A DNA stretch of 64,000 nt, taken from positions 2,914,001 to 2,978,000 of the forward strand of contig OY294047.1 in the NCBI GenBank assembly GCA_958510825.1, read 5' to 3'. The number at the start of each line of letters is the position of its first letter. Position 1 is the stretch's first letter. Below are positions 1,267 to 61,720 of this stretch, in pieces. Made by a program: the position numbers and the translations under genes. The notes under the pieces are model-generated. The model was given only the letters and a program-made list of their open reading frames with translations. It was not told the origin of the DNA and ran no database searches. The DNA comes from Brachypterus glaber (Eukaryota > Arthropoda > Insecta > Coleoptera > Kateretidae).

Positions 1267-1345
1267 AACTGAAAACGATTGCTGAGGCGGCTCCCATGAC
1301 TCCAAAGAAGGGTCCATAGACAGGGTTAGTTTCCGGTAAAGACAT
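1267..1345 (-). CDS. Vha16: V-ATPase 16 kDa proteolipid subunit c, first coding exon (partial gene)
   Basis: Minus-strand exon of 79 bp encoding MSLPETNPVYGPFFGVMGAA and then SAIVFS. The YGPFFGVMGAASAI run is the highly conserved amino end of the V-ATPase c subunit, the proteolipid that forms the rotor ring of the proton pump in endosome, lysosome and plasma membranes. The exon ends in phase 1 at a consensus donor (gtaagt, reading down from 1266). The remaining exons, with the other membrane helices and the proton-carrying glutamate, are not in the window. The ATG at 1343-1345 is the first in frame before the conserved run. Identification is strong despite the short length. Confidence 0.85.
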
Positions 1346-2630
1346 GTTGAATGTATTTGAGGAGTATTTACAGGTCAAAAAGGACTAAATGTGCACAACA
1401 CTCTACGGAACCAGCGAACCCACTGACAAAAATGGCTTACACGACTGCGAGCAGCAAGAATGGGTCATATGACGATAAGATTTTTCAGGTAGAGTATGGG
1501 TATTTCCAATCACGTGATTGGTCGGATTTGAGTTTAAGGCTAAATTTCGACCAATCGACGAGCTGTTCCGATGATAATTCTGTGATGTCACTTTCACTTC
1601 GTGTCTCGGGACGAGTTATGAACACAGAAACCTTTCTTAATCATAATATATTTAATTTTACTAATATTCCAAAAAATATAACGTATTTTTTTATAAAAAA
1701 TAAACCTAAAATTTATCACAAACTGTTATCCCCGAAAGAATCGTTGATTGTCATGGCGCATGTGATTTCCGCTTTACGAAGCAGGCGCCGATGCCCCGAA
1801 ATTCAAATGTTTCGCCCGGCAAATTGTCAAACTTTTAAGTTGGCTAAGAAATTAAAAATATATTATATTTATAAATATACTAGAATAATTTTATAAAATT
1901 TCATTTGTTTATACAAATATTTATTTTAATTTGTTTGTTTTACATTAATTTTCTACGTCAGCTGTTTTCGGTATTACTTAACACCTCGCTTATAACACCC
2001 AAATTATAATTTGCTATTTTTATTAAATTCGTTTGTTTATAACAGCAATAACTGCTATTTTTAATAATAAAATTGAGTATGGCTTTTACTAATTTAAAAA
2101 ATATATATAAACCTATATAGGAGAATTTTCAACATTTTTCGTTCTTTTTTGCATTTTCTAAAAAAAATTGAATTTATTTTTTGAAAAAACGAAAAAAATT
2201 TTTTTTATTTTTTAACATCCTTACTTTATCTCGATTTTTGCCAAAAACAATCCCAGCCGAGATCTGGAGAAGGTACCATGGTCATATTGCAATATGGTCC
2301 AAGTTTGATGTCTTTTGATCAAAGCGTACTTGAGTTATCGATCGATTTAAACATAAAAAAATCACTTTTTGTACAAATGCTGGATTTCCTATATTCTTGA
2401 ATTAAGAAAAAAAATGTAAGAAAGCCCTAGCGCCGCAGGCGAAGTTTTTACATTCTATGGTCTTTTTAAATTTTAAACCAGTCTTTTACTTTACAATTAG
2501 TTAGATATAAAATTTTCAATAATACAAGGAATTCTAGCGCCGCAGGCGGCGAAATTTTTTCTACAAATTTTGCAATTATTTTATCCTGTTTGATCTTGAC
2601 AAGTGCTATTAGGCACCTTCACCAAAATAA
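1346..2630. other. Vha16 upstream region, no further gene recognised
   Basis: The first ~500 bp is less AT-rich and contains CCAAT boxes and CG-containing stretches (about 1750-1820), as expected for a housekeeping promoter. From 1850 it becomes very AT-rich. Two short motifs, ctagcgccgcaggcg, recur near 2428 and 2531. A 181-codon frame across the promoter (1351-1896) resembles nothing known and is not called. Confidence 0.4.
1506..1521. promoter_or_regulatory. CLEAR/M-box-like palindrome upstream of Vha16
   Basis: A perfect 16-bp palindrome, ccaatcacgtgattgg, contains the E-box CACGTG in the TCACGTGA context preferred by MITF/TFEB-family factors, flanked by CCAAT on both sides. It lies about 165 bp upstream of the Vha16 start codon. 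MITF/TFEB factors are known to activate V-ATPase genes in flies and mammals. Binding here is inferred only. Confidence 0.5.
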
Positions 2631-2639
2631 TTATACTTG

Positions 2640-3065
2640 CACTTAAGGGTGAATTTTTTAGTGATCAACTTTTTTGGCAGGGGTAAAATAATTTTTTTTT
2701 TGGGGGGTGAGGACCTTTTGTTGTTGTCATCAAAATTTTTGACAGGAGTAACGTGACGAGGACCCTTTTTTTAAAGATAGTGAGAAAAATCCAACCCCCC
2801 CTCTTGGGGGCCACCCTGGTGATTTTTTTTAGTGATCAAAATTTTTGGCAGGTGTAAAATATTTTTTTTTTTGGGGGGTGAGGACTCTTTTTTTACTCGT
2901 CAAATTTTTTGGCAGGTGTAAAAATTTTTTTTCAGGAGGATTTTTTTTTTGACATCAAATTTTTGGGTAAGTAAAAATTTTTATCGGTGGTGCACCGGTG
3001 AGGACCTTTTTTTTAGTCATCAAAATTCAGGGGTATCATCAACCTATAGGGGCCACCAAGCAAGG
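2640..3065. repeat. T/G-rich degenerate tandem repeat
   Basis: Several imperfect units combine the motif atcaaaatttttggcagg(g/t)gtaaaa with a G-run and gtgaggac. Related sequence occurs near 40,960-41,180 and, inverted, near 54,540-54,920, so this is a dispersed low-complexity family. No coding potential. Confidence 0.6.
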
Positions 3066-3344
3066 GCGGATTTGGGGGGGGGGGGCTATATTAGCATAGA
3101 AATACATTCAAAATTATATTTTTGGTGACTGCAATTTTTTTTCTTCTTATGGATGCCCCCCCCCCCCTTAAAATGAAATAAATCCGCCCCTGCCACCAAG
3201 CCCGAGGCTAGTGAGATTTTTTAACTATTATAGGTGAAACAAACAGGCGCGTAGACATGGGGGGTAGAGGGGGTATCCCCCCCCCCAAGAATCTTTATTT
3301 GTAAATTTTTTAATTTTAAATAAAAAATTAAAATATCAGCGGGT

Positions 3345-3560
3345 GTTTGGGTAGGAGCGCCAATTTTTGTAGAAACGATCAGGGACAAAGCTTTTTTTTT
3401 TCGGAGGGTGGGTATTATTTTGTTTTGGTAGGGGCGCCAAATTTTGTAGAAACGCTTAGGGACAAAGATTTTGTTTTTGTTTTAGGAAGGTGTTTTTTTT
3501 GTTTTGGCTCAGGGACAAAGCTTTTTTTTTTTCATTTTCGGAAGGTAAAAATTTAGTTTT
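3345..3560. repeat. Short tandem repeat, about 85-bp unit
   Basis: Two and a half imperfect units, each with ggtagg(a/g)gcgccaa, then tttgtagaaacg and agggacaaag, followed by a T-run. Short open frames across it are a by-product of the repeat. Confidence 0.6.
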
Positions 3561-3630
3561 GTTTTTAGTCAGTTTCGTAAAAAGTTCTGGTAATCGGCAA
3601 ATTTTCAAAGGTGATGATCTTTTTTTAGTT

Positions 3631-3819
3631 ATAGGTCGTCGCCGAGGTATTGATTCTAGTATACGGGTTTGAGGAGCCCGCTCCGTGTGCAGTCCAGTCG
3701 ACTAGACGCGCAAATACGTTGCTGAAGTAACGTATTTGTGGCATCTAGTTGACTGGTGCTCTGCACGCAGCGGGGTTTCACGCCCGTATGCTGAAATCAA
3801 TACCTTGGCGACGGCCTAT
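3631..3819. mobile_element. Foldback (MITE-like) element, ~190 bp
   Basis: Nearly the whole segment is an imperfect palindrome. The ends ataggtcgtcgccgaggta and taccttggcgacggcctat pair, and the centre pairs caaatacgtt with aacgtatttg around a short loop. This is the structure of a terminal-inverted-repeat element or long-hairpin locus. Superfamily not assignable; candidate target duplications (AGTT or AGTTAT) are ambiguous. Confidence 0.7.
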
Positions 3820-4197
3820 AGTTATCACTGCAGTGATTATTATGATGACTCATCATCATGCTGACTCACCAGTTTCTTTCAGGTATTGAAACGAATTTTT
3901 GGTAGTCGTAAATCTTTAGGAATGTCGAAAATTCTCAGTCATCAATTTTTTTAGTTTCTGGGGGGACAACATTTTTATTTGGCAGATGGCAAATTTTGTC
4001 AAAAACAAAAACCTCGGAACGCCCCTGGGTGGAATGTCTTGAAAAAAAGATAAAAAATAATCCTTCTTTATTTATTACTATGCAAATTTAAAAAAAAAAT
4101 AATAAAATTTTCTAAAATTATTTATAATACAAATATATTACATAAATAGTTTGTACAGACAGGAATGATAACCTTAAATACACACATATTTTAAAAA

Positions 4198-4299
4198 TTA
4201 GTGTTTTTCCAAAGCCTTAACTAATAAATCGTTCATTGAAGTCAGAAGGATTCTTGGATCGTCCACTAGTCCAGCGCCTACCATAGAATTTGCAAAAAG
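4198..4299 (-). CDS. Trap1: TRAP1 exon 13 (stop)
   Basis: Encodes [20 protein letters not shown] and [13 protein letters not shown], stop at 4198-4200. The ending matches other TRAP1 proteins. Possible poly(A) signals on this strand occur about 70-135 bp downstream (tttatt on the plus strand near 4066-4135). Confidence 0.92.
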
Positions 4300-7200
4300 C
4301 TGAAAATAATTATAATTAATATAAATTACATCGACACTCCCATCCAACAAGGATGTAACTCAAGTTAGGCCCATTTTGAGTTATGCTCATAGGTAAACGC
4401 CTTATAAAAAGATACACATGGTGGTACTACTCAGATTTTTCTACAGGCCATTTTAACCAAAAGTTTACCTAAAAAGGCTAAAGTAAGAAATTCTAAACTT
4501 GAATTTTATCAGAAACAAACAATAAATAAAGGATAAATACTTATACAGTTAAATAAAGAATTTTATAAGCTTTCAAATGATGTATCACTTGGCTACCTTT
4601 TCCACTTCAATTATTTGCCCACTCTTAAATAAAAAATATATATTTTAGAAATTTAGCTGTCGTGAAGAATGACAATATATGAGTTACGGCTTTGTTGCTT
4701 GGGGGTATCGTCATCCGCACTTGATATTATAGTTTGACGCACGAATCTGTGGCTACGGGAAATATGTTTGGAATGTGTGTGCAAGTGGGAGGCCTATTGT
4801 ATGCACGCATGCCTTATAACGTTCTTGACGGAAAGGAGAGAGCGCGAATGACTCCTCCCCCTTTCGTCGGAGACTTTCTTTCATGCGGAGAACTATACTA
4901 AGAGAGTCTATGTATTGAAATCTTCGCCGAAAAGTCAAAATCTTTGACCATGTTTTTTCACATTTCTCGACGTTTTAGACCTTCCCGAGTCGAAATCAGT
5001 AAAAAAAAATTTGCGTCCGTCTGTCTGGGTGTAAACTCGCTAACTCCATTTCTAAAACTAGATGAAATGTTGCAAGCACCCTGTCAAAACATCGGCATTA
5101 TTGTACACTAGAGCCATCTAGTTTGCAAATAGGTGTTTTGTTTGATTTTAAATTCTGTATCTTTAAAACATTATATTCTAGCAAAAAACTGTATATAACC
5201 TTTTTTTATAGGGCTTAAAAAGAGCTTTTATTTAAAATAATTAAAAACCTTTTACTGCTTTAAACGCCAATATCTCGAAAACAATGTGTTTTAGGAAAAC
5301 GTTGTTTATAACATTTTTTGACCAATTTAAAATTATCTTTTATATATGTGCTAAATTAACCAAATACAATAATAATTGCCTTAATTATAAACAAAAAAAG
5401 CTAAAAATAGGAGTTTTACCCTATTTTTACCCCCTTACCCCCAATCGTTTACCCCCAAAATCTAATCAGCTCTTCGGAATACGATAAGAAACAATATGCA
5501 AAAACCGCAAGTCGATATCTCATGTAGAAATGGAGTTAGAGAGTTTACACCCAGATAGACAGACAGACAGACGGACGGACGGACGCAAACATTTTTTTTA
5601 CTGATTTTGGGTCAGAATGGTCTAAAACGTCGAGAAATGTGAAAAACGTGGACAAAGATTTTGACTTTTCGGCGAAGATTGCAATACATCGGCACTCTTA
5701 GTAGCACTAAGTGCCGATGTAAAAGATATCGACAAGCGGTTTTTTTGAATATTGTTTCTTATCATATTTCGAAGAGCTGATTAGATTTTGTGGGTAAACG
5801 ATTGGGGGTAAGGGGGTAAGAATGGAGTAAACTCCCATTTTTAGCGTTTATAATTAAGGCAATTATTATTGTATTTGGTTAATTTAGCACTTATATAAAA
5901 GATTTTTTAAATTGCTCAAAAAATGTTATTATAACTATTGTTTCCTAAAATACATTAATTTCGGGATATTAGCGTTTTATTTAGCATAACTCATTTTAAA
6001 AATATACATTTCAAATTAAAGCTCTTTTTAAGCCCTACATATACAGTTTTTGCTAGAATATAATGTTTTGGAGGTACAGACTTTCAAATTTTAATAAATT
6101 ATGCAATACGCATTAATGGCTGCCTATTCACACAACTTCCTATTTCATAACGTTTCAAATTAGTGCCTAGTGCCGATGTTTTGACAAGGTGCTTGCAACT
6201 GTTCAGCTGGTTTGTATCTAGTTATGCAATAACTAGTAAAAATTTAACGTTATTTAATAGTTATTTATGGTACTAGTGGGTAAAGTAAGATATTGCCCAT
6301 GAGAAAATTAACCTGAGAGGCGTCTACCAAGCAGGTTAATTTTCGAAAGGGCAATTTCGGTTTACCCATGAGTGACATACAAGGTTTTATCCAATAAATA
6401 GCTTACTAATTCATATTTTTATTAAAAATTTTAATGACATTTACAAGAAAATAATTTGACAAGAGACAGTTGAGTGGGAAAAAAATAAATAATTATCCAC
6501 TCAATAAAGTAAGATCCACGCGGGGGTTATTATTGAGTTTATCTATTTAAAATAAAGCTGGTAATTGTCTTATTATCTGTATGTATTGGATAAATACGTT
6601 TTTAATGTATAAATCTCCAGATTTCTAACCTTAAAATTATTTGTATATTATTATTAAGGGGTCGACCATAAAATACGTCACGTAAATTGACCAAAATTCA
6701 TACACTTCATACCCCGTTTGTCGCGTTATAAAGGGATATAGAGATTTCATATTTTGGCTATCCCCCAATAGGGGGAACATCTCTAGAGCCTTTAATAACG
6801 CGAGAAACGGGTATGAAGTGTATGAATTTTGGTCAGTTTGTGTGACGCATTTTATGGATGTTCATTATACAGAAAAAATCCCTAGTTTAGGAGGATTAAC
6901 ACGGGACCAGTCCGCCTCTAGAACCAGAACCTGTCAAATAGGTATAATAAAATAAAAATATAATAAAATAACAAAAAAATAAAATCCATCTTTTAAAAAC
7001 TACATACTCAAAAAACTCTAATCAGATGGTTCAAATCTTATCAAGTACATGTTTTAAATGAACAGATAAGAATTAATATCTATCATTATAATAACATTTT
7101 TAAAAACCATACCATTTATGTCACTTTGTATAAAAATCTAATTCTTGTCCCAAGCTGGAAAAAAATTATAATAAGTTTTTTGTGTAGTTTCATTTAACGG

Positions 7201-13200: not shown

Positions 13201-16200
13201 TTTTCTTTTTAAATCCTGAGCCGTTTGGAAAATACGTACCCTTGAAATTTCTAAAAAAACTCCTTTATAAAAATTTCCCTCATAATTCGGCAAAATTATT
13301 CCGTAAGCCTATGTTTCTATGTTTATTTTCAACGTTGATGAGTCATAACTGAGGAGTTAACGCCGACTACTGTTTATGAGTAGTACAATCTTACGCAGGT
13401 TACGCTAAAATCGCCCTTTGGCTTATAAATTCGTAAAACTTTCGTATTTTTTATAAAATTGTTTTAATTATAAATTGATTTACCCAAATTTGTTACAGGC
13501 TGCTCTTAAAAGTAAACACTTTACAAAATGATATAATCGATCTAATCCTGGACGAAATTACCAAGATAGCATCAGATGAGTGTGAAGATACATCATGGCT
13601 TCGTCAACTTATAAACCCGTTACGATATCTGCCGTATATTCACGAACCAAGCTGCTTAACCACAAAATTGTTGGATATATTGGAAATATCCACACTGCCT
13701 GTTCAGCTGGAGATATTGGATTCGATTCCAGAAATTATCCCGGATAGCCAGTACAGCCAAACTGCTAAACAGTTGGGAAGTCTTATTGATGACAATGATG
13801 ACCTTTGCGGAGCTATTATCGACTGCTTAAACGCCTTAAACATCGAGTCAGACATAAGACTTGGAGTTCAAGATAAAATTTTAGCAAAACTCATGGGCGG
13901 AACGTCATTAAAAATATTTCCAATACTTCTAGAATTCCTGATGACTGACAGTAAATCTCAAAACATAGTTCAAACGTTCCTAAAAATTCGAAATGCTTTA
14001 GATTCACTGATGTTTTCATGTGAATCTAGCTCAGACAAAGAATCGAGTAAAATACTCATTTTTAATAAGCTACAGACATTTTCTAGAACACCAAAATCAA
14101 ATTCCGATGCGTGGTTAAACATGATTATAAGCATTAAAAATAGCTCTGATCATAAACCTATAGACTTGTTAATGCTCTTTATGCTACATTCTTGTATCAA
14201 ACACAAAAAACGCATTATCGAAGGACTGATTAAAAAGAAAATAGCTGCTGGATTTTTTAAAATAAACATGTTGGAAAAATTGTTTGATGGTTATATTCCT
14301 CAACAATTATTTAGAGATTATTTTCAATCTATGATTGAGATCGGTTCGTCTCTGATCCGAGTTAGTCAAGACCAAGCAATTTCAGAATTCGTAACGACAC
14401 TATTTCGAATCCTGTTTAAAAATAAGTATACCGAAGCCATATATCGAAAAGAAATTCTAGACAGCCTTATTTTACTAACGGGAACTACTAACCAACAAAC
14501 AATCAGTTTAATCCTCAACATAATCCAGCATTTCTTAGCAGACAGTGATAAATTACGTCATCATACTATAATACTTATGCGTCTTTTAGAAAAACTAGAC
14601 ACATTTGACTTGAATGACATCAAAAACGTATTTGAAGTTATATGCGCATTAACTTGCGGTGAAAAAGCAGACGATGCGATGTCAGGTTTAAAGGATGAGA
14701 TACACATTATAGTTAGAAAACAATTGAGCAGTTCACAGCGTTCTATTAAACACAGAGGGATAATTGCATCCGTTGTAATGGCTAAACATATCGTAGAAAC
14801 TTCCAACGATGAAAGCGAGATAGAAAGTAATGGTGATATTTTAAGTATTGCCCAACTACCGGCTGGGCTGGCAAGAGATGCAGGTTGTCTATTGGAATTA
14901 ACCAGTGCTTCTACTTCTGGAGTTCCGGAACTAATGGGCTTATACTACGACCAACTGGCTTCAATGTTAATGACAAATAAACATTTGAATAAATATTTCT
15001 TGACTTGGCTGAATGACACTATAACAAATGACTTCGAAAAGGATTATATTACTGATGATATGCCGGATAACGTTGGTGATTTAGAATTTAGCATGCAATA
15101 TGTGTTAAACAGTACTCTTGAAATGAAGGATCCAGATAAACCAATAGGTATTAATATAGCTGGACTAACTATTGGTAAACAAACAAATGAATCGATTGTT
15201 TTACTAGCGCCACATTTTAGATTGTTGCGGCTATTACATTACAGGCAACATGACGGAAATCTTTCCTCGATCGAGGCAACACTGGGTTGCGGGGTAATAC
15301 TTCCCAAATACAGTGATATAACAGATCTTGATTCAGACGATGTGAAAAAAATGGCGGACTGTTTATTCCACTGTGCAAATTGGTTTAGGGAAATATTAAG
15401 TGGTTTTGTTACTCAAAAAGAAATACAAATGAGGGCAAAAATATTGGAGAGGCTAAACAATCTAATAACTATAGAAAAGCAGTTAGATTTATGCATGGAA
15501 ATTGTTCCAGAATATAAGTTACCTGTTAGTTATTTTGACTCGTTATCACAAATTAGTAAACAAACGGCTTCATCTCATAAAGAAAAAACGAAAAATCCCA
15601 AAAAGAGGTTCAAATCTTCAGACACTGCACGTCCTACAACGCAAGATCCTAATGATACAACACTGGTTTCACTACCCGCTCAAAGTCAAAAAAATAAAGC
15701 CTCTAAGAAAGTTACGGCTGTTGAGAGTAGTATTATATTTAGAGAAGTAGACACTGATTTAATAATCTTATTGAAATATCCTCTTGACTTGGGAAACGAA
15801 AATGTAACACAGTCGCTTAAAATAAGTTTGGATCAGTTCAAATTTATCATCAAAGATTATGTAGCCAAATTAGAAATATTAATGAAAGGGCAAAAGAAAG
15901 GTTTATCACATTTGAATGTTGTCGAACCTTTAAGTATGATAAAAGACTGTGTTTACAATCTACCAAATATTGATAAACACTTAAAGGTTATAATAACAAA
16001 AATAAATGAATTACTAGAAAAAACAGATGGGCGTCATGATTTGCCTGCAATGTTTACAGAAGAAGCTATAGAAATGAAAGAATGTTTTGGACTTATACTG
16101 AGAAGCTATTACCTGATATTCAGTTGGACCGGGTTCCAGCATTCAAAGAATTTGGACTTGCTGAGGACTATTTTAAGGTCTCTACGACCCGAACAATCAC

Positions 16201-19200
16201 AAACTCTAAACTCTGCAAATAGATTAATAGTGGAATTTATTAACAGACTTGCTACCTATGTTGATAACTGTTTGGTAATATCTCACGCTGTATCGTTGGT
16301 TAAAATAATGGAGGCACTGTATTCCACTACCGTACCTACTGCTGATATGCAAAAAAAGATAGTATCTGTTAGCTCGAAGTTTTTAAGTAAGAGATGGTAT
16401 AACATAAAAGGAAATATCGACTCAGGGAAAGCATCTAACGCTAATATTGATATTTTAATCAAGTCTTACTTAACTGGAGCGAGCATTCAGGCAATATGTG
16501 GAATTGTGGGAACTTTGCAAGAAGAAGCAGCGTTATTGAAAACAAGGGAAGATTGTCTGCATATGTTGGCCAGCGTAGACAAACAGAACTTTCACATTTT
16601 TTACGCTGATATATGCTCTGCTTTACACGATCGAGTTAAGACAGAGATACAGGCTCTTACCAACAAAAATCATCTTGTGTTATGGAAAACAACCGCATTA
16701 ACTATGGAAGGATTGTTGGCTGTGGCTAAAATCCACGAAAATAAAACGAACTTGACCAGTTTCCTTAAGAAGTCGATCATGATTTTAAGAATATTTTTAT
16801 CACAGGGCGTTCCAATGATGGAACTTATGCTAAAATCGAGTCCTGATGAAGTAGTTAAAATCTTAAAATCCATACAGACTAGTACAAGATTCTTACATCA
16901 CTTATGTTGTGCCTCCAAGTTGGCCAAAAATACTGCTATTATGGCTTACGTACCGCAATTCAGACTGATTCTTGAAACTTTAGTGTATAGAGTTAAAGCT
17001 GCTTTGGTGGCCAATAATTGCTCTGAAGCTTTCTGGATGGGAAATTTGAAAAACCGAGATCTGCACGGAGAAGATATTTTGACCCAAAGCACTGTGGTAA
17101 CCGAATCGTTGGAGGGAGAAGAAAGCGACAGAGAGCTTCCTGATGATGATAGTGACATTGAATTGACGGGGTCTGACGTTGTAAACAACAAATCCGACAG
17201 CGAAGTTTATGATTAATGGTATCCATACAGTATGTATACCATTACTATGTAACTATGCCAACGAATTAATAACTCTTCTTTCTAGAATACGCATACCATT
17301 AAAATAAAGTATCAGCAACATCTCGGTTTGTTTGTAAACAAATAGTAGGTATATTCAGGCCTGAACAATAACATTTACCAGTAACTGGTATTGTTGTCTC
17401 TGTTAGAACAAAGATGTGCGAGTAAGACAGACGAATGTTTATGTTGCCGACGTTTTTGTTACTTTTAACGAATAAAATGCCTATTCTAGAGAGAAGAGTT
17501 ATTAGTTCGTTGAACTATGTCCGCCACAAAGAAGTGGGACAAGAAGTTAGCAACGAACGCTACATATTTTTGATATTTTAACAATTTAAATCAAACTCTT
17601 AAAACCTCAAACCTAATGGACCAGCCTCCATGATTAGTTTATAATTAGGTTTAGTGTTATTTATATACTTTTGTTTGTTAATGTTCTTAATCTTTGTTTC
17701 ATATTTAATTTACCGTATTTGTAAGTTGTATATATTAATTAAATCTTTTTTATTTTCTTTTAAGTATTTTTGTTTTATTTAATAATAATTAAATCAAAAT
17801 CAGTTCAACTACATGCAATATTAAGAAACCGATTCTATTGATCCAAGATAAAAGTAATCAATTCAATGACATTTACATTTTAGGTACTTCATTTTAACTG
17901 ATTATGGTAATTCTAATTAAAAATTTCCTATTTTTGTATTTTAGTTTTTTAATTGGTCATAAATTATCTATAATAGATTAAATTGGTAAATATTTATATG
18001 TAAACATTTTAGAATGAATCTACACTTCAAAATCTAAGTCAATTTTAAAGGATTATTTATTACAATACGTATTATAATTTAATTTTTAAAATAACAAAAA
18101 AGTATACAGGGTGTTAATGAATACGTGTGCCAAAAGTATAGGGCCTGTAGGAAATGTAAATATAGGCAGAATAGTCCCCATAAACATATGTCCTAAAACG
18201 ACTCGTAAGGGGGCTACGCTCCTTCAAAAGGGGTTCTAAATATTCGATTTTTGTTTAATAACTTAGAAACCCTTTGTGTTAAAGCAACGAAGCTTTGCAT
18301 GTGAACTATTCTTAATAGGGCTCATCTTCGCATGTTATTGTCATGTACCTATTTTAACCAGGGGCGTGCGAAACGGGAGGCCTTATCAGTTTTTTGTCCC
18401 AATCATTTTTCTGTGTAACTTTTTTGTGATATTATTTTTGGAATATGATCCCTCAGGCCAAAATACATAAAAAGGTACTCTTGTTGTAATACTGTAGGAT
18501 TAACCGTTTTCGAGAAAAGTTCATTTGAAGGTGATATTTCACGGTTTAAGGACGAAAAATTAAATACTAAAATGGTAAAAAACAAAATTTCAATGATGCA
18601 GGGTTATTCTGTATCAAAAACTAAGAAAAAAGTTTCTATACACGTAGGTCGAAAAATAGTGTGTAAAGCTACTACTATGGCCCCTTTAAAAATGGTGCAT
18701 TTTTGGGGGACCATAGCTCCCCTAGGATTGATTTTTGGAAAGGCCTGTATATGAGGTTTTTTCTTAGTTTTGATCATCATTGAAATTTTGGTTTTCAATA
18801 TTTTATTATTTTATTTTTGGTTCTCGAAACGTAAAATTTCACCTTTAAATGAACTTTTCTCGAAAACGGTTAATCCTACAGTATTACAACAAGAGTACAT
18901 TTTTTATGCATTTTGACCTGAGGAATCATATCCCAAAAATAATATCACAAAAAAGTTACACAGAAAAACGTTTGGGACAAAAAACTGATAAGGCCTCCCG
19001 TTTCGCACGCCCCTGGTTAAAATAGGTATTAATTAATTATTATTAATTAACTAAAAAAGGCAAATCGGCGCCAGTGAGAATCGAACTCACGCTAGCTTGG
19101 CTAGTTGGCTTGTCATGTAGACGCAGTAGCCAACTGAGCCAAATCCTCCCAGATGGACTTTTTCAAAGTTTCTTATCTTTTCATGAAACTATATACCAAG

Positions 19201-22200
19201 ATTTTTTTTTATCGAGGATGTTTTTTGGCTGTTTTGGGAAATTTGAAACTACCGTATAATACTATTCTAGCGCAGGCGCTATGAGTAGTATAATAAGAAA
19301 CATTCAAAGGGCACAGATGAAAAAGGATTTTGCAGGTTTGCCAGTTCCCTATATTTTAAATTATGTCTTCACTCTTATTCTTGGCAGAAAACGTCAAATT
19401 AAGGCAGCTAGCGCTACTCGCTGTGAATAGGCCAAATCTATAAAATTGTACATTTCCCATTTATTTTGCACAAAATCACATTTTTTCAACTTACCTTTTC
19501 ACCTTGGTTGTGGTTGGTAATAATTCCTTCCTTTATGAATAGTCCATAATCTACATAAAACTTTTCAAATTCCGGTTGATTCTTTTTCAAATGTTCTTGC
19601 AAAAACTTCAATATTCTTGTTGTCAAAACATCTCTCAGTTTCCTAAAATAATTATAAGAAAATTTAAAAATAAACACAAGATTTTATAAGAATTGAGTTA
19701 AGTACTTATGTAACTATTGCCGATTTTTTGTGGGGCAGCGGTTACTAACCAAGTTAGGGGAATATCTTTTTAACTCATCAATCAAACAGAGAAAGAGTAA
19801 CATACTGGTTAACCGGCGTTACCACAAAAAATTGAATTATGTTATGAAAGTGTAACCAAAAAAGTAAAAGTTACTGTTAAATAAATAACACAGCTGGAAA
19901 CCCTAGTAACAATTTTTGTCAAGTCTTAAGCAAGTCTGGCTCAAGATTCTTGATCAAGTAACTGCATTCAGATTTTGACAATTCTGGCGCAAGATACTGG
20001 CGACAGATTCTTGTTCAAGAATTGCTACAGATACTTCGTCAAGATTCTTGGACAAGTCTTGAGCAAGAATGTAGCAGGAAAAATTGACAAGAAATCGAAA
20101 AGCGATCTCTATCATGATCAGATCGTACTTGTTAGAGTAGGTCAAGATTCTTGACCAAGAATCTTGTCAAATTGCTTGCTACAGACTTGACGAACAGACT
20201 TGACAAAGTATTACTAAACGCTCTGCATCCAGATTTTGACAATTCTGGCGCAAGATACTGTCGACAGATTCTTGCTCAAGAAGTGTCAAAGAATTGCTAC
20301 AGATGACTGTGACAAGATTCTTGGACAAGCCTTGAGAAAGACTGTAGCAAAAAAAATTGACAAGAAATCGAAAAGCGATCTCTATCATGATCAGATTGTA
20401 CTTGTTAGAGTAGGTCCAGATTCTTGAGCAAGAATCTTGTCAAATTGCTTGCTACAGACTTGACGAACAGACTTGACAAAGTATTACTAAACGCTCTGCA
20501 TCCAGATTTTGACAATTCTGGCGCAAGATACTGTCGTCAGATTCTTGATCAAGAAGTGTCAAAGAATTGCTACAGATGACTTTGTCAAGATTCTTGGACA
20601 AGCCTTGAGAAAGACTGTAGCAAAAAAAATTGACAAGAAATCGAAAAGCGATCTCTATCATGATCAGATTGTACTTGTTAGAGTAGGCCCAGATTCTTGA
20701 GCAAGAATCTTGTCAAATTGCTTGCTACAGACTTGACGAACAGACTTGACAAAGTATTACTAAACGCTCTGCATCCAGATTTTGACAATTCTGGCGCAAG
20801 ATACTGTCGACAGATTCTTGCTCAAGAAGTGTCAAAGAATTGCTACAGATGACTGTGACAAGATTCTTGGACAAGCCTTGAGAAAGACTGTAGCAAAAAA
20901 AATTGACAAGAAATCGAAAAGCGATCTCTATCATGATCAGATTGTACTTGTTAGAGTAGGTCCAGATTCTTGAGCAAGAATCTTGTCAAATTGCTTGCTA
21001 CAGACTTGACGAACAGACTTGACAAAGTATTACTAAACGCTCTGCATCCAGATTTTGACAATTCTGGCGCAAGATACTGTCGACAGATTCTTGCTCAAGA
21101 AGTGTCAAAGAATTGCTACAGATGACTTTGTCAAGATTCTTGGACAAGCCTTGAGAAAGACTGTAGCAAAAAAAATTGACAAGAAATCGAAAAGCGATCT
21201 CTATCATGATCAGATTGTACTTGTTAGAGTAGACCCAGATTCTTGAGCAAGAATCTTGTCAAATTGCTTGCTACAGACTTGACGAACAGACTTGACAAAG
21301 TATTACTAAACGCTCTGCTTTGCTCATCAATTTAAATGTTTTTTTTTTGTAATTTTAGAGCAAAATAGAAAAAAATTGTATAAAGCACTCGTTTCATAAC
21401 ATGTTTATAGCCCACTAGTACTTCGGAAAATTCGCTCGTTTTCTAAACTTGTACTCGTGCGCTTAAAACGTATGTTATGAAACTAGTACTTTAATATACT
21501 ATTATTTTGTAGGACTGTGTTGTTTGAAGTTGCGTTGATGACATTTTATTCAAATTTTTGCAGCAAAAACCCTGGAAATCAGCCTTATTATAGAAACTGA
21601 CCTTATTAACTGACTGTTTTGCAAAAGTTCTCTACTCAAGTTCAAAGGAATATCTTCAGAGTCTACGACTCCCTTGATGAATCTTAACCATTTTGGCAAA
21701 ATATTGTCAGTCCTACTTTTAATTAAAACTTTCTTGGTATACAACGCTACTCCGGATTCAGTCTCTCTTGACATTTCAAAGAGCCCTAAAATTCATGTAA
21801 ATTTAAGAATTTTAAAAATATATGCCATATACTGTAAGGATAAATGAAGATAAGAAAATTTTGGAACATACGGAGGTTAAGGGTTAAACCTTAAAGCAAA
21901 ATTTCCTTTCAATTTCTATAGTTAAAAAAAATGTTATGTAACAAATGGGGGGGGGGGGCTTCAAAATGTTACGCCGCGTTACATGGCGGGTGGGCGTCTA
22001 AAATGGCCATATTTTGCGTTACGAAATACTAGACCCTGGTAGAAAAGTACATAAATCTAACTTAATATTAGATTAGTGACATTTTTATGTTTAGTCTCAA
22101 ACGTTATACAAACTAACGTTAGTTTCCTAACTAAATTCTAACCTTCTAACTTTATTTTTTTTTAAATTTCCATTATTAATACGTAAGCTATAGTAGAAAA

Positions 22201-55179: not shown

Positions 55180-56215
55180 AAATAAATAAATAAATACCAA
55201 GTTTATTTCGAGAAAACGTCTTTAGATACAGGGTAAATAAATACATTTAATGAAATTTTGTCATAAAAACATAAATAATTTAAAATTAAAACCTAGAGGT
55301 AGGTACATCTGACAAACATTTAAGTAAATTAAATAAATTAACACAAAATAAGGAATATATAGAGTCAGCATGTCAATGAGTTGAACACGCTGTATAAAAC
55401 TCCTCCAGTGAATACGGTTCTATATTACAAATATATTGAAATAACTGGTTTTTGAAGCCAATCTTATTCTTATTTTGTTTTAAACTTGTAGGCAATTTGT
55501 TATGAAATTGCACACATGTGTAGTATGTTCCTTTTTCAAATGTAGATAGTCTGTGTTTAGGTACATTGTAATCTATTATTCGATCTGAGTTTGGTTCTAG
55601 ATCTTTAAATAGATGTTTGTTTTTTAATAAAAAGAAAATGGCTTCATATATATACAAACCTATAACCGTTAGGATGTTATTTGATTTAAAAATATTTCTG
55701 CACGAAGCTCTATAAGGTAGTCCTAGAATTGTTCGTAAGACTCTTTTCTGACATTTTAAAACAGATTCAATCTCTTTAGATTTCCCCCAAAATATAATGC
55801 CGTATCTTAGTAGACTTTGAAAGTTTGAAAAATAGACCACCTTAAGAGTGTTGAAATCTAAATATCTCCTTAACACAAGCAACGAATAATTTACTGCATT
55901 AAGTTTAGTTCGTAAATGACCTATATGTGAGCTCCAGTTTAAATTCTCATCTATATAGATGCCTAAAAATTTAACATTTTGCTCAAGTTCTTTAGAATCA
56001 TTTTCAATTTTTATACATTTTTGTTGTTGATTCGTTAATTTAAACTTTATAAAATTTGTTTTACTTTCATTAAGTATTAGTTTATTTTTTATTAACCAGT
56101 TTTTTATGGATAAAAATAATGTTTCTGCCTCTAATACAAGAGAATCTTCCGAGCCTGATTTTACCAAAAAATTTGAGTCGTCAGCAAAACTTACTAACGT
56201 CTGATCTTGTAACTA
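55180..56215 (-). mobile_element. 5'-truncated non-LTR retrotransposon with long open frame
   Basis: Minus strand: the frame 55,373-56,167 (264 codons) extends upstream through QTLVSFADDSNFLVKS, so the FADD catalytic box is just included. Then VKFLGIYIDENLNWSSHIGH, RYGIIFWGKS and FHNKLPTSLKQ follow, the C-terminal half of a Jockey/CR1-like reverse transcriptase. Ends with (TTTA)n. The intact frame suggests recent insertion. It sits immediately downstream of the USP-like coding sequence. Confidence 0.85.
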
Positions 56216-56402
56216 AATATTCAGTTAGAAATGGATAGGAAGTTATGATCTTATACAAATGTACTTTAATTTTTGTTAAAAAAAAAGCAAACTTTGTAGT
56301 TTTATTATTCTTTCAATAAGTAACATATAATATAAAATATAAACATATAACATTTAAAAATAAAATAAAATAAAAGCAAATACAAAATAAAACCGTGGCT
56401 CT
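56216..56402 (-). other. 3' untranslated region of the USP-like sequence
   Basis: AT-rich. Carries AATAATAAAAC on the minus strand near 56,300. Ends where the truncated retrotransposon begins at about 56,215. Confidence 0.45.
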
Positions 56403-57095
56403 TCAAAGATGTTCGTAAAATAATATGTAGGCATCTGCTGTTACGATTGAATTTTTTGAAACAGAAGAGACCCTATAGTCGTCGTATATATGCCACCTGT
56501 GACTATACGGATGCTTACAAAAGGCGGTATAGTGTCCGCTATACATGTTACCATTATGATTGGAAATGGCGTACAAGTTATAACTGCAGGGTGCGTCGGA
56601 CTCTGCGGCATAACTGCTCATATCTAAACCTTCTAGAGGGAAGTCTACCATAACGCTGAGTTTTCTTTGAAACTGTTCCGTCGAGGAGAAGCGTTTGAGG
56701 TGGATTACTAGAATTTTCGGGAATTTTTGAATTGTAAAGGATATTGTGCATTTTCGGCGATCTTTGCATTTTGAACATGTAGGTTTTTCATCATCGTCCA
56801 ACGTTTCTTCCCGCATTGAAACTTCCAAACATTGCGACAACCTTAATTGACCGGTCCGTTGTGGAAGTGAAAGAGAAAGATCCCAGAACGGGTCAAAGGA
56901 GACGGAACAATGACCGCAATGAGTGCACTTGACAGTGGTTTTCAGTTGGCCGACGAAGAGGTCCAAAATGCGAGAGTCGTCCATCCGGAGGTAACTGGAC
57001 CATGAAGCTGCAGATTTTTCGTTATCATTTAATTTTTCGACTATCTCGGCCAAAGTAGGTTTAGATTTTTCCGTGACCCTGTTGACGTCTTCGTG
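56403..57095 (-). pseudogene. USP2-like deubiquitinase domain, C-terminal part (shifted frame)
   Basis: Continues the USP domain begun in the upstream frame, from HEDVNRV to the stop at 56,403. Encodes EDSRI-like MDDSRILDLFVGQLKTTVKC, a CxxC pair (CTHC), a second pair (CSKCK), FPKILVIHLKRFS, the His box SGHYTAF (His codon 56,533-56,535) and IYDDYRVSS with an acidic residue at the third catalytic position. It most resembles USP2/USP21-type ubiquitin proteases, which cleave ubiquitin from substrates. No intron interrupts it. The join at about 57,096 is off by one frame (a net two-base loss relative to the expected GLHE). It is either a pseudogene, a programmed or sequencing frameshift, or part of a chimera. 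A poly(A) signal AATAAA on this strand lies near 56,300. Confidence 0.8.
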
Positions 57096-60000
57096 GTCCC
57101 TCCAAAAGATACCGCAAAAATTCTTGTGCGTCCTGTTGTGCGTATCCCATAAATCGGGGGGCGAAATGCTGGATTTGGTTCTTTAGGGAAATCGTGTTCA
57201 CTATCCGGTCAGACGAATCTTCCGACCACAGCTCTTTTATCACCTCGGAAAACGCCTTAATTAAAGCTCCACGCATAGTAGAAATATTAGTATTGATGTC
57301 CCGAACATAAATGTCCTTCTTCAGGTATTCCATCAAAAGTTTTGTGTTTGAAAGGCATTGAATCACCGAGTTCATAAAGCAGGTATTCCCGATATTTTTT
57401 AAACCGTTAAGACCCAGGGATGTGACTGGACATCCGACCACCCGCTTATTGTTCGTAATAAAGTTTTTCTCGCTCAGGTTATCCTCATCATCCCCGTAAT
57501 TAAAATGGTTGTTGGTGGACTTTTTTGAGGACCTGCACGATATGTTATTGGCCAACCCTAAATTTCCAGAATTTGAAGGAGATACGGTCGAATGGTGGTT
57601 CAACTTTGAAGAAGATAAGGAAATTTCATTAATTTGATTGTTTTTTTCCACGTCTAAATTATGATCTAAATTATTGCTATCATTTAAAATAGAACCAGTA
57701 CCAGTTTCGAAACTGTTTTCATCATTTTTGTAGTCATTTGTCGGTATATTCGATGTAAAATTATTGACACTTGAAGTTTTCCAATAATTATTTTTACAGT
57801 TCGCCTTTATATTTGAAACAGATGTATGCGGATTAAAATCATCAGCTATGTCTTTACCAGTCAAAGTTCCCAAAACACTAATTCCATTGCCTCGTTGTAT
57901 TGCTATGCTTATCCTTTGTAAAAAGAAAATACCTTCTAATGGATTACCGGTAGTTTCAACCAATTGTTTGCAGATTTCTTTAAAGAAGCTTTTAGCCATT
58001 GGCCCGTAAGAGCCAAATGTTTCTATAGCAATTGGCATAAATATATAGTCTTTTGATAGAGATTTATAATTCTTTATTTTATTTAATTCTGCTTTCTCGG
58101 CAGCGGCACCATCGTTTTTGGCATTAATCGTCAAGTAAGAAGGAGCAACTGAATCTATACAGGTAAAGTCCCATACAAGACATTTACCATACTTATATGG
58201 TACTAGGGTCATACCATCAGGTCTCTTACCATCTAATCTTGCGTTTAAACCGGGAGGTTCAAGAATTGCGTGAAATCCAATTGTTGTTAGGGCTTTTTTA
58301 ATAATGTTATTAACCTCCCTATGTCGAGAATGGCGACCTTTGCAAAATCTACAGGAAAGTCCGTGAGTCCCTGATGAATCAACACAGACTCCACAAAAAC
58401 AAATGTGAGGGCTTACTGTTCTATTTGAGCCAATTCTTAAATTAATGCATATTCTTAAAAAATGTTTATTTAAAAGTAGTCCTAAACTTGATACTGGAAG
58501 AACGTTTAACCAATAACCTGCTTCTTTTTGAGTAATAGCATTTAGGCGGGATTTATCCTTTAAAGAGTTGGCTTTTTGTTTTAAAAGGTTTGATGCCATC
58601 TCAATAATAGGTTTATCCCAATCACGTTGTTTATATGAAGAAGGAGGATTAGATTTTGTCAAAGCTTCCCATTGATCCACTGCTTCTTCGATTCCATATA
58701 ATTCTATTTGATCAAATTTAATTAATATTAAACTGACAAGGTCAGAATTTGCCTTGCAAGATGAAATAAAACTTGGGAGAGCAATATCCATTGAACGACG
58801 AAGTCCCAAACCACCATATTTGACAGGGAGAGACGTTTGTAACCATTGAACATCTGATAAATAAATATTAGTTACAGCACAGAAAATGTTACGGAGAGCT
58901 TCATCAAAAGTATTTAATAAAATTTTCTGTTTGTATAAAGGAGATGTTCTTAATAAATATTGTAATCGGGGCATTGAAATGCAATTTTTTAAAAGGTAAA
59001 AAGCTTGGTGTGGTTCTAATAAAAGAATTCTATTTCCCAAAGTTCCTAATGTATTGGTTTTCTTATGAAGAATCCTAATTTCAGCATCTTTGCCAAGAGG
59101 AGAACCAAGTAACTCTAAACAACCTTGCTTGATAACCTTCATTTGACTAAATTGATCAACATTTAAATTTTTACAATTCAAATTGTAAATTTCACATTTT
59201 TCTTTATTTAAGAAAAGCCCATATTTAGGACCTTCTTTTATAATAAAATTTAAATCCTCTAAAACAGTTTCCATAGTTCCAGCAAGTGAACCATCATCAA
59301 GGAACCATACGTTAAAAGGTGATTTTAAACCAGCAAACAGAGGCATAGCCGTATGGCAAAATAAAAAAGGACCAAGGGGATCACCTTGCTGTACGCCCTC
59401 TTCAGATTTAATGATAGTGTTTCCGTATAAAAGATTTGAAGGTTCTCCATAGCTTGCGTAAATATATTGATAAATCTCTGGAAATTCTTCGTAAATAGAA
59501 TTTAAAAGAACGTCACGACGAACAAGATTAAAAGCGTTCATGAAGTCCACTTTTAAAATAATTTGATTTTCAGAAGATTTTTCATAATTCATAAGGGAAC
59601 GTAGTCCATGAACAGCAGCTTCAGCACCTCCGGATATTCCAAAACCAAGTTGTGTCGGAGAAAAATTTTTAACTGCTCGGTCTCGAATTTCTTTTACAAC
59701 ACATTTTGATGATAATCGGCGTAGAGTTAAACCAATAGCGATGGGCCTTAATCCACCATCTTTTTTTTTAAGGGAACAGAGATAAGCTCCAAAAAAAGTG
59801 GATTTTATAAAATAAGGTATTTCACCTCTTAAAATTTTATTGACTAAATTCGTCAACCCAACCAGTAACTTCTGAGCAATGTCTCCATTACGAGAATCTG
59901 TTAAATCCTGTAAATGACAAGGACGAAGACCATCGATCCCTGCACTTGAGCTTTTTGAAAAACTTGAAATGGCAGCTTTAACATCAACTACATTAACTTG

Positions 60001-60837
60001 CAATTGTTTACGATCAATTTCAGTTGGTGGGTTACTAGAATCAATATTTTTCGGTGGGTGTTTCTCTTGCATAATGGCTGTATTATCTTCATTAGCTGGA
60101 ACAACAATGTCGTCAGAGCATGCCAACTTCAGAGCCCCTCTCACATCTCCCTCAGAGAGTTTTAAGGACACCCGATGAGCCATCTTAAGTTCTAGTTTAT
60201 TTTGACATAAAAAATCGTCTTCATCTTTAGCCTTTCTCAAATTTGTTTTATTGGGGACGTAAGAACAAAACTCTTCGTCGTTTAAAATTGTACAGGAAGG
60301 ATAATCTCTTAATAATTTATTAATTTTGGTAGATAATGAAGTTTTGTTACTTTTATCATTTTTATGAGAAATTTTGAAACAGGAATGAGAAAAACAGAAA
60401 AGTTTCTTCCAAGATTTTTTAGAATTTTCAACACATACTTCATTAATGCAGTCTAATAATTTTTCACCGGCTAAAATTCTTGACGCTTTAGGTATTTTTG
60501 ATATGATTCGTCCACGCGAACGTAGTTTTAAGAGGGAAGATAATATATCGTCAGAAGGATCTTCAATATATTTTGAGGAGTTACTAGAATTTTCAGGAGT
60601 TGGTTCAGAAGATTTAGTATTATTAGATTTCATTGTATGACTCCGGGTGGAATGTGATTTGAGGCCTCTATTTGTTTTAAAAAATTTAGGACACAGTAAA
60701 CATTGAAAGCATTTGTTAACCTGTGAAGAGTCATTTTTATTCAAATCCACTTTGGTTAAAGATTTTTCTCGACAATCAAATAATGACACTGACATAATCA
60801 GAACTTTAAAATTAACTTTTTCACCAAAAAACGGCAC
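57061..60837 (-). CDS. RLE-type non-LTR retrotransposon ORF fused to USP2-like N-terminal domain
   Basis: One 1258-codon open frame (first ATG at 60,793-60,795; the frame is also open upstream through GTG at 60,837). Residues 43-67: C2H2 finger (CFQC...HSTRSH). About 280-560: reverse transcriptase with motif A DFMNAF (Asp431), motif B QQGDPLGP (484) and motif C FLDDG (Asp514-Asp515). 813-832: CCHC cluster (CFCGVC...HGLSC). 872-892: restriction-like endonuclease RPDG...LVWDFT (Asp874, Asp890). The retroelement part ends near IAIQRGNGISVLGTL (~991). Then comes an Asn/Ser-rich linker (~995-1140) and the USP Cys box GLNGLKNIGNTCFMNSVIQC (Cys1153, codon 57,379-57,381) with GYAQQDAQEFLRYLLEG before the frameshift. 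All RT and endonuclease catalytic residues are present, so the element looks recently active. It resembles R2/NeSL/CRE-group elements; exact clade uncertain. The USP portion has visibly higher G+C than the RT portion. Confidence 0.88.
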   Translation of the reverse strand: MPFFGEKVNFKVLIMSVSLFDCREKSLTKVDLNKNDSSQVNKCFQCLLCPKFFKTNRGLKSHSTRSHTMKSNNTKSSEPTPENSSNSSKYIEDPSDDILSSLLKLRSRGRIISKIPKASRILAGEKLLDCINEVCVENSKKSWKKLFCFSHSCFKISHKNDKSNKTSLSTKINKLLRDYPSCTILNDEEFCSYVPNKTNLRKAKDEDDFLCQNKLELKMAHRVSLKLSEGDVRGALKLACSDDIVVPANEDNTAIMQEKHPPKNIDSSNPPTEIDRKQLQVNVVDVKAAISSFSKSSSAGIDGLRPCHLQDLTDSRNGDIAQKLLVGLTNLVNKILRGEIPYFIKSTFFGAYLCSLKKKDGGLRPIAIGLTLRRLSSKCVVKEIRDRAVKNFSPTQLGFGISGGAEAAVHGLRSLMNYEKSSENQIILKVDFMNAFNLVRRDVLLNSIYEEFPEIYQYIYASYGEPSNLLYGNTIIKSEEGVQQGDPLGPFLFCHTAMPLFAGLKSPFNVWFLDDGSLAGTMETVLEDLNFIIKEGPKYGLFLNKEKCEIYNLNCKNLNVDQFSQMKVIKQGCLELLGSPLGKDAEIRILHKKTNTLGTLGNRILLLEPHQAFYLLKNCISMPRLQYLLRTSPLYKQKILLNTFDEALRNIFCAVTNIYLSDVQWLQTSLPVKYGGLGLRRSMDIALPSFISSCKANSDLVSLILIKFDQIELYGIEEAVDQWEALTKSNPPSSYKQRDWDKPIIEMASNLLKQKANSLKDKSRLNAITQKEAGYWLNVLPVSSLGLLLNKHFLRICINLRIGSNRTVSPHICFCGVCVDSSGTHGLSCRFCKGRHSRHREVNNIIKKALTTIGFHAILEPPGLNARLDGKRPDGMTLVPYKYGKCLVWDFTCIDSVAPSYLTINAKNDGAAAEKAELNKIKNYKSLSKDYIFMPIAIETFGSYGPMAKSFFKEICKQLVETTGNPLEGIFFLQRISIAIQRGNGISVLGTLTGKDIADDFNPHTSVSNIKANCKNNYWKTSSVNNFTSNIPTNDYKNDENSFETGTGSILNDSNNLDHNLDVEKNNQINEISLSSSKLNHHSTVSPSNSGNLGLANNISCRSSKKSTNNHFNYGDDEDNLSEKNFITNNKRVVGCPVTSLGLNGLKNIGNTCFMNSVIQCLSNTKLLMEYLKKDIYVRDINTNISTMRGALIKAFSEVIKELWSEDSSDRIVNTISLKNQIQHFAPRFMGYAQQDAQEFLRYLLEGPRRRQQGHGKI

Positions 60838-61002
60838 TTTCCATGAATTCTTTCTTTCTTCAATAAAAATTAGTGTATAAATAAAATATTAAAATAAGTT
60901 TCTTCAAATAAATTCTTGTTTTTCCTCAAAAAACTGATAAAAAATATAAATATAAAATAAATGACTTTGACTTCAGGTTAATTAGTTGTTAAAAACACTA
61001 TA
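60838..61002. other. Region upstream of the chimeric ORF
   Basis: AT-rich, with an out-of-frame ATG at 60,842-60,844 (minus strand). Could be the retrotransposon 5' UTR; no boundary or target duplication could be identified. Confidence 0.35.
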
Positions 61003-61382
61003 GTTCTAAAGTCACGTACTTTAATATATGGGGGGGGAGGTAATACTCATAGCCGGCCTTTCGGTACCCTGAAGCAGCCTTGACAGTTTGCTAATTAAAT
61101 TAGATTTATGTGGATAAAAAAGTAAAATTGTACTGTGTATTTTGATGTTTTTTATAAAATGTAAGGTAACTAAATCAAAAATTAAGTAAGTTCTAAAGTC
61201 ACGTACTTTAATATATGGGGGGGGGGGGGGGGGTAATACTCATAGCCGGCCTTTCGGTACCCTGAAGCAGCCTTGACAGTTTGCTAATTAAATTAGATTT
61301 ATGTGGATAAAAAAGTAAAATTGTACTGTGTATTTTGATGTTTTTTATAAAATGTAAGGTAACTAAATCAAAAATTAAGTAA
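61003..61382. repeat. 187-bp tandem duplication with unequal G-runs
   Basis: Units start at 61,003 and 61,190 with gttctaaagtcacgtacttt and otherwise look identical, except that the first has G8-A-G2 and the second G17. The second unit continues into repeat H. Confidence 0.9.
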
Positions 61383-61720
61383 GTTTTATAACATCTAGAC
61401 ACAAATAAAACATCCCAAGTTATATCTTGGTAAAACTAGTAAGGTTATAACTATAGTTTATATTTTTGGCATGAAACACAGAAATATTTGGATTAAAAAA
61501 TATAAAAGATATCAAAAAAGGCTGTGATGAAAGGTGGGAAATGGCTTATAAAATAAGGTGAATAAAATTCGTAGAATCTGCGAAGTAAACATCTAAATTA
61601 AATTAGGCTAACCTCCATACATAGGGTGATATAAAAATATCAAACTAGTGTGGTATAAGGCGTTTTCTAAAGAACAAAAGAGTGTGCTAAATGTCATTTT
61701 AATAGGGGATCGTAGGAAAA
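61310..61720 (+). repeat. Dispersed repeat H (copy 2)
   Basis: Ordered matches to 29,620-30,070 (see that entry), including cctccatacata and gaacaaaagagtgtgctaaa. Confidence 0.65.

Follow-up and report, generated by a model that had tools for sequence, protein, structure and literature searches.

A stretch of 64,000 nucleotides from the beetle Brachypterus glaber (assembly GCA_958510825.1, contig OY294047.1, positions 2,914,001 to 2,978,000; hereafter the window) holds on its minus strand a copy of a retrotransposon without long terminal repeats (non-LTR), in which one open frame joins a reverse transcriptase to a ubiquitin-specific protease (USP). We conclude with high confidence that this is a young, multicopy non-LTR retrotransposon with a putative restriction-like endonuclease, and that the C-terminal part of its only protein is a deubiquitinase acquired from host Usp2. 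An element of the LINE (long interspersed nuclear element) type has thus taken a named regulatory enzyme of its host and kept it under selection, while the donor gene still resides in the same genome.

Copies of the element and layout of its protein

We searched the genome (648 Mb, 842 contigs) with 200 residues spanning the junction between the reverse transcriptase (RT) protein and the USP. The best 150 of 662 candidates were scored, which makes the copy count a lower bound. At least 20 places, including the window, matched the query in full at 98-100% identity; 17 of these lie on contigs longer than 26 Mb and three on small contigs, possibly alternative haplotypes. A sequence-only reading of the window had proposed an element-borne USP, with several loci sharing the RT-USP junction as the predefined test, and had set against it the case of a single junction in the only Usp2 locus. 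The genome instead holds these 20 or more junctions and, on contig C18, a separate Usp2 gene. Because so many places share the junction, the join is not a chance event.

We then compared the window with 19 other copies (L009-L027) and one older copy (L028). Ten of the 19 start within a few bases of a common 5' end (window 60984), among them L012, which carries an internal deletion, and nine are 5'-shortened, including L020, which adjoins a run of N. All but one (18/19) end inside the same 19 bases, around window 56301, behind the USP and a 3' untranslated region (UTR), giving a constant 3' end with variable 5' shortening. Identity is 98.9-99.9%. Their 40-base 5' flanks are unlike apart from short endings, so each copy inserted separately. 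The window copy, L012, L019, and L021 have possible target-site duplications of 10-13 bases, in AT-rich flanks that make them weak alone; in the remaining 16 of 20 copies they were shorter, an A-run, or absent. An unbroken frame of 1495 codons is present in six of the 19 other copies. The unit of RT, endonuclease, and USP is repeated as one element, which is young and multicopy.

These copies bear directly on the possibility of a meaningless one-off chimera, formed either when an element took a host Usp2 transcript with it in a single 3' transduction or when a processed Usp2 copy inserted behind a retrotransposon. Read-through of this kind seems to occur: L009, L011, and L016 encode identical 1495-codon proteins and share 60-61 bases of 3' flank before diverging, with 5' flanks that do not match each other, which seems to be a sign of 3' transduction from one source. 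However, a single event would not yield at least 20 junction places with unlike flanks, a common 3' end behind the USP, 5'-shortened copies, six open 1495-codon frames, and a USP whose ratio of nonsynonymous to synonymous substitution rates (dN/dS) is 0.18. We regard this alternative, also raised by the sequence-only reading, as very improbable.

The window copy comprises the following features.

56301..60984, minus strand: whole non-LTR retrotransposon copy, about 4.69 kb; among 19 other copies, 10 share the 5' end and 18 share the 3' end to within 19 bases
60796..60984, minus strand: 5' UTR, starting TAATTAACCTGAAGTC
57061..60888, minus strand: open frame, 1275 codons long here and 1495 in intact copies at other loci; the first ATG lies at 60795
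60637..60711, minus strand: N-terminal C2H2 finger; motif read by eye
59164..59769, minus strand: RT core, RVT_1 (Pfam); FLDDG motif at 59290-59304
58351..58401, minus strand: zinc knuckle ahead of the endonuclease; motif, Cys/His columns mostly invariant in the nine-row alignment A3
58066..58224, minus strand: restriction-like endonuclease core RPDG...WDFT...K..Y; motif, core columns invariant in A3
57835..57894, minus strand: natural C-terminal end of the RT-endonuclease protein; stop position in most nearer relatives
57793..57834, minus strand: junction of 14 codons, assigned to neither parent
57418..57792, minus strand: Usp2 N-terminal region taken from the host gene, continuous over host intron sites
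57098..57417, minus strand: USP catalytic domain, first part; catalytic Cys codon 57379-57381
57095..57097, minus strand: frameshift of the window copy, two bases fewer than L009
56403..57095, minus strand: USP catalytic domain, second part, in another frame; catalytic His codon 56532-56534, third triad position Asp 56481-56483
56301..56402, minus strand: 3' UTR behind the USP, about 100 bases, ending GAAAGAATAATAAA
60986..60995, no strand: candidate target-site duplication, 5' copy, 10 bases; AT-rich, weak alone
56273..56282, no strand: 3' counterpart of the candidate target-site duplication, 10 bases long and 18 bases beyond the end of the element

The single frame from the finger through the RT into the USP Cys box was thus confirmed; the Pfam matches comprise RVT_1 (residues 374-575, E 5.8e-18), the initial portion of the UCH/USP domain (residues 1162-1264, 4.1e-24), and the remainder of that domain in the next frame, to 56403 (1.1e-40). 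The R2 protein is a weak match in the Protein Data Bank (PDB), with the overlap confined to the RT. No Pfam model matched the C2H2 finger or the endonuclease in this open reading frame (ORF). The PD-(D/E)XK endonuclease and the zinc knuckle are therefore putative, recognised by motifs whose residues are mostly invariant in the alignment. The bounds first given (56403..60837) proved too narrow at both ends. Relative to L009, the window copy has 12 mismatches and lacks two bases at 57095; since six other copies read through at this point, the single frameshift already noticed is private to the window copy, which is a broken member of a family holding intact frames.

The protein proper also ends later than first read. 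Among the nearer relatives, the majority end some 23 residues past the RGN motif, which places the natural end of the RT-endonuclease protein near residue 1018-1021 rather than about 991. From about residue 1033 on the sequence is host Usp2, so that the supposed linker of about 145 residues is for the most part host-derived: 57,420-57,790 was ruled out as element linker and is Usp2's own N-terminal region.

Directly next to the element, a 5'-truncated piece of another RT (55373-56212, minus strand; RVT_1 E 3.4e-5, under the Pfam cut-off) adjoins its 3' side, with a TTTA-type repeat beyond it near 55190. Just upstream of the 5' end lie two 193-base tandem copies (96% alike) and a poly-C stretch (61002-61385).

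Origin of the deubiquitinase in host Usp2

For residues 1000-1275 of the window ORF, beetle Usp2 proteins are the best database matches (best 120 of 451). With six beetle Usp2 proteins as tblastn queries, similarity to the window begins at about 57,774 for four and at 57,900-57,948 for two, and other parts of Usp2 were not found in the window beyond two weak spots (E 0.05-0.07; 0.7). The authentic gene was located with the first 299 residues of Leptinotarsa Usp2, which are absent from the element and match, in four pieces, a single place in the genome (C18:24998366-25004120). We assembled this host Usp2 over 634 residues, leaving out the far N-terminus, and found it open across all of them. 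Over the captured part it has eight exons and seven GT-AG introns of 359-9091 bases. Introns within the USP domain were first hinted at by the Usp2 isoform P0042 and then read directly in the host gene.

None of the seven host introns is present in the element. Its match starts in the host exon around NNY...SSVNNF and runs unbroken where the host has a 9-kb intron. Because the element is continuous over the introns of the authentic gene, the source was a spliced Usp2 mRNA. The description of the USP part as intronless and richer in G+C likewise held, with one frame against seven host introns and a G+C content of 0.42-0.45 against 0.32-0.36 in 500-base bins of 57501-60500. Host-like G+C and the polyA-signal-like 3' end behind the USP part are what one would also expect if the element had inserted into a host Usp2 gene with an intronless last exon, as had been considered. 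The authentic gene, however, is multi-exon, open over the 634 residues assembled, and on another contig, and the window holds no further Usp2 part save the two weak matches, leaving this explanation with practically no probability.

In the USP domain, element families are 84-86% identical to the host protein. A maximum-likelihood tree of 21 USPs, including 15 other insect Usp2 proteins, united the five element-type USPs (98/96) and gave them the Usp2 of the same genome as sister (99/97), and an earlier tree of 27 rows gave the same picture (100/97 for the element clade, 100/98 with host Usp2). Judged by these trees, the USP is derived from Usp2 of the same beetle lineage.

The captured domain appears to be maintained. 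Copy L010 gives a UCH match of 1.5e-69 (Pfam) and keeps the NTCFMNS and SGHYTA boxes with the catalytic Cys and His; these residues and the third triad position are assigned their usual roles in USPs. A structural model of its USP domain (346 residues; predicted local distance difference test score, pLDDT, 83) has human USP2 as best PDB match, with a template modeling (TM) score of 0.89. Between L010 and the old copy L035, dN/dS is 0.176 for the USP domain (95% bootstrap 0.11-0.26) and 0.38 (0.18-0.88) for the host-derived linker. For L010 and L038 it is 0.17 in part of the USP and 0.12-0.18 in the endonuclease region, and between families the USP gives 0.22-0.26. With a dN/dS of 0.18 inside the family, the USP is under purifying selection.

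Probable exchange between families and probable recurrent capture

A genome search with Leptinotarsa Usp2, in which the best 57 of 914 candidates were scored, showed that the module is not confined to one family. All 57 matches span the USP domain without intron, four with one internal stop, and 44 are immediately preceded, on the same strand, by a match to the endonuclease, a lower bound based on 79 of the 150 junction-search rows. Three of the remaining 13 were read: L039 and L040 are 5'-shortened copies, and L032 is an ankyrin-repeat fusion described below. L029 and L030 carry the same Usp2 module as the window family with other junctions, and L029 has a PHD-like finger under the Pfam cut-off. 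L031, of a C2H2 family (zf-C2H2_6, under the cut-off), has the module at yet another junction, with its frame broken between endonuclease and USP; its RT aligns at 58-59% with those of the other two Usp2 families.

Between these three families, nucleotide identity rises from 64-66% in the RT to 81-84% in the USP and 3' UTR, and the proportion of synonymous differences (pS) falls from 0.71-0.77 in the RT, near saturation, to 0.34-0.37 in the USP. The blastn matches extend into the 3' UTR behind the USP, in a stretch that is AT-rich. By these divergences, a block of USP and 3' UTR is present on three RT families that diverged much earlier in their RT. The Usp2 module is younger than the split of the RT families and therefore moved between them, unless one unsampled donor supplied them all.

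We propose that capture and later swaps would have occurred by template switching during target-primed reverse transcription: the enzyme would start on the RNA of Usp2, or of a Usp2-bearing element, and, close to where the endonuclease coding region ends, switch onto a different RNA. This mechanism could explain both the sharp step in identity and the ankyrin fusion. In the latter (L032; G000:C10:17372800-17378000, at 1108-4965, plus strand), an ankyrin-repeat region (Pfam Ank) of 1286 open codons, presumably from a TRPA-channel-like protein, runs in-frame into the same Usp2 module and ends in the same 3' end as the element families. A further 352-codon stretch lies upstream in the same frame, with one stop between. 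It looks like a chimeric retrocopy, perhaps produced by template switching.

The families might instead have captured Usp2 independently from the host gene. Their matches start at different Usp2 positions, and the unlike deubiquitinases of other families show that capture recurs. Against this, the element USPs form one clade apart from the host, and the between-family matches run on into the AT-rich 3' UTR, although a lost retrogene as donor of all families would look alike. The approximately unbiased (AU) test rejected grouping the host with L031 (p 0.0016), with L029/L032 (0.025), or with L010/L035 (0.015), groupings chosen after the first tree had been seen. We consider separate captures unlikely next to a single capture followed by swaps.

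The L032 fusion also raises the possibility that the USP is a passenger, of no use to the element, travelling with a 3' end that the RT recognises, since the 3' block may be a priming handle that takes any 5' partner. A passenger coding region would drift, yet dN/dS is 0.18-0.26 and the Cys and His boxes are kept; moreover, another family has an unlike USP at the same place. We therefore hold a passenger role to be improbable.

That other, fourth family (L036, L037) encodes a CAP-Gly domain and then a USP behind its endonuclease. In L036 the CAP-Gly domain matches Pfam at 2e-6 and CYLD in the PDB at 3.2e-13, and the best PDB match of the USP is USP35 (5.8e-60). Full-length matches to the 465-residue query, at 97-100%, occur in at least eight places, alongside further partial ones (best 91 of 266 candidates scored). 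In the RT tree, which does not resolve the three Usp2 families among themselves, the fourth family groups (99/94) with L041, whose family has no deubiquitinase and whose frame of 1012 codons terminates at the natural end. Because the fourth family's USP is unlike Usp2, a deubiquitinase was gained at least twice in this genome. At G000:C5:308629-312591, three successive endonuclease matches, 1761 bases apart and lying in frames of 455-484 codons, may form a tandem array derived from the 3' part of a related element.

Database proteins extend this picture. Scoring 7991 candidates gave 87 RT relatives, seven of which have a UCH domain behind the endonuclease (P0137, P0149, P0153, P0161, P0179, P0187, and P0188); presumably these USPs are USP35/38-like and USP37-like. 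One other (P0146) has an N-terminal OTU domain. With the distant rows P0196-P0207 excluded, 12 relatives have more than 120 residues behind RGN, the seven with UCH and five with no domain recorded. A FastTree of 75 rows (P0195 and P0196-P0207 excluded) paired the window element with P0121, which has no deubiquitinase, and put the seven UCH carriers in another clade. A last search with a nine-row RT-USP profile (7981 candidates scored, 65 proteins) added the RT-OTU proteins P0243 and P0245 as well as RT relatives from a sea spider, a springtail, and a hairworm.

Together, these results lead us to think it probable that deubiquitinase capture is recurrent in this group, and that 3' blocks of deubiquitinase and 3' UTR are exchanged between RT families as interchangeable cassettes by template switching, driven by selection for removing ubiquitin from the machinery of the element or from its target site. 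The cassettes would be Usp2, CAP-Gly with a USP35-like domain, and other USPs; in relatives, an OTU domain occupies the opposite end of the protein.

Several observations weigh against our main reading, a multicopy element with a captured and selected Usp2 deubiquitinase. An unsampled Usp2 retrogene may have been the common donor of all families, and the AU groupings were, as stated, selected with a tree in hand. The window family has Asp at the third triad position, where L029, L031, and host Usp2 have Asn; both residues are functional in USPs. Between L010 and L038, the synonymous rate (dS) of the USP (0.35) exceeds that of the endonuclease (0.14-0.19), which simple joint descent does not predict. 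This could reflect module exchange within the family, or drift towards AT from a host-like G+C, since G+C at third codon positions (GC3) is intermediate in element USPs (0.43-0.48) between host Usp2 (0.51) and the RT part (0.22). L035 and L038 give a dN/dS of 0.68 with an interval of 0.20-3.3, and their frames are broken outside the compared parts. The RT frame of L031 has no RVT_1 match at E 0.05. Among database relatives, P0137, P0149, P0153, and P0161 are limited to the initial part of a USP; the 65 proteins of the last search include no RT-UCH protein beyond P0153, P0179, and P0149; and viral contigs, scanned once using the RT-USP alignment A2, gave 133 pattern matches and no relative.

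Elsewhere in the window, a 1245-codon frame (13479-17216, plus strand) matches FancD2 over most of the model (E 9e-157) and is a host DNA-repair gene, intronless there. A 273-base tandem repeat of 4.8 copies, 97% alike and with a period divisible by three, occupies 20017-21318.

Possible role and known systems

As to what the deubiquitinase does, we tentatively favor a role in cis, in which the USP would strip ubiquitin from the element's own protein or ribonucleoprotein and so avoid proteasomal turnover, although our confidence falls short of even. This fits best because the USP is fused in cis to the RT in a frame that is open in six 1495-codon copies. Ranked next, and rather doubtful, the USP may act where the target site is nicked, on chromatin or repair factors that carry ubiquitin. 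The findings suggest that ubiquitination genuinely impedes retrotransposition in insects and that ubiquitin removal aids the spread of elements. They open to direct testing the question of why proteases acting on ubiquitin and its relatives recur on mobile elements, and illustrate what appears to be a cassette-like exchange of 3' modules between retrotransposon families.

Proteases of this general kind are already known on other mobile elements, with Ulp1, OTU, and VTD domains and, in Trichomonas, a C19 peptidase joined to a transposase. Ginger1 DNA transposons carry a C-terminal OTU or Ulp1 domain, a Trichomonas protein joins transposase and peptidase C19, and a link to DNA repair was proposed (PMC2836005). 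Unlike the beetle element, those described there are DNA transposons without reverse transcriptase, and no donor gene is traced in that account. Helitrons with VTD or OTU deubiquitinases, for which shielding of transposition proteins from the proteasome was proposed, resemble our element in bearing a deubiquitinase but are rolling-circle DNA transposons with other domains (PMC9741609). TRAS/Jockey LINEs offer a LINE protein extended by a captured foreign domain; theirs is a helicase from RNA viruses, not a host deubiquitinase (PMC6338049; see also PMC5563155). Among the literature matches listed, in which subscription papers and preprints are thinly covered, no USP on a non-LTR retrotransposon was found; such a USP, with its donor traced and exchange between families, therefore seems to be new.

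Parallels also exist among non-LTR elements themselves. P0146, P0243, and P0245 share with the window element an RT of the wider group and a deubiquitinase-type protease in one ORF, but theirs is an OTU domain and N-terminal. NeSL/Utopia retrotransposons unite zinc fingers, RT, restriction-like endonuclease, and a cysteine protease directed at ubiquitin-like proteins in a single protein; the Ulp1-like protease occurs in some families, and some Utopia elements have none (PMC4640811). No ULP Pfam match was found in the window ORF or L010, which, since some Utopia lack the protease, does not exclude membership of the wider NeSL clade. The NeSL/Utopia protease is Ulp1-like and N-terminal (PMC4640811), whereas the beetle element carries a C-terminal USP whose host donor can be traced and which appears to have been exchanged between families.

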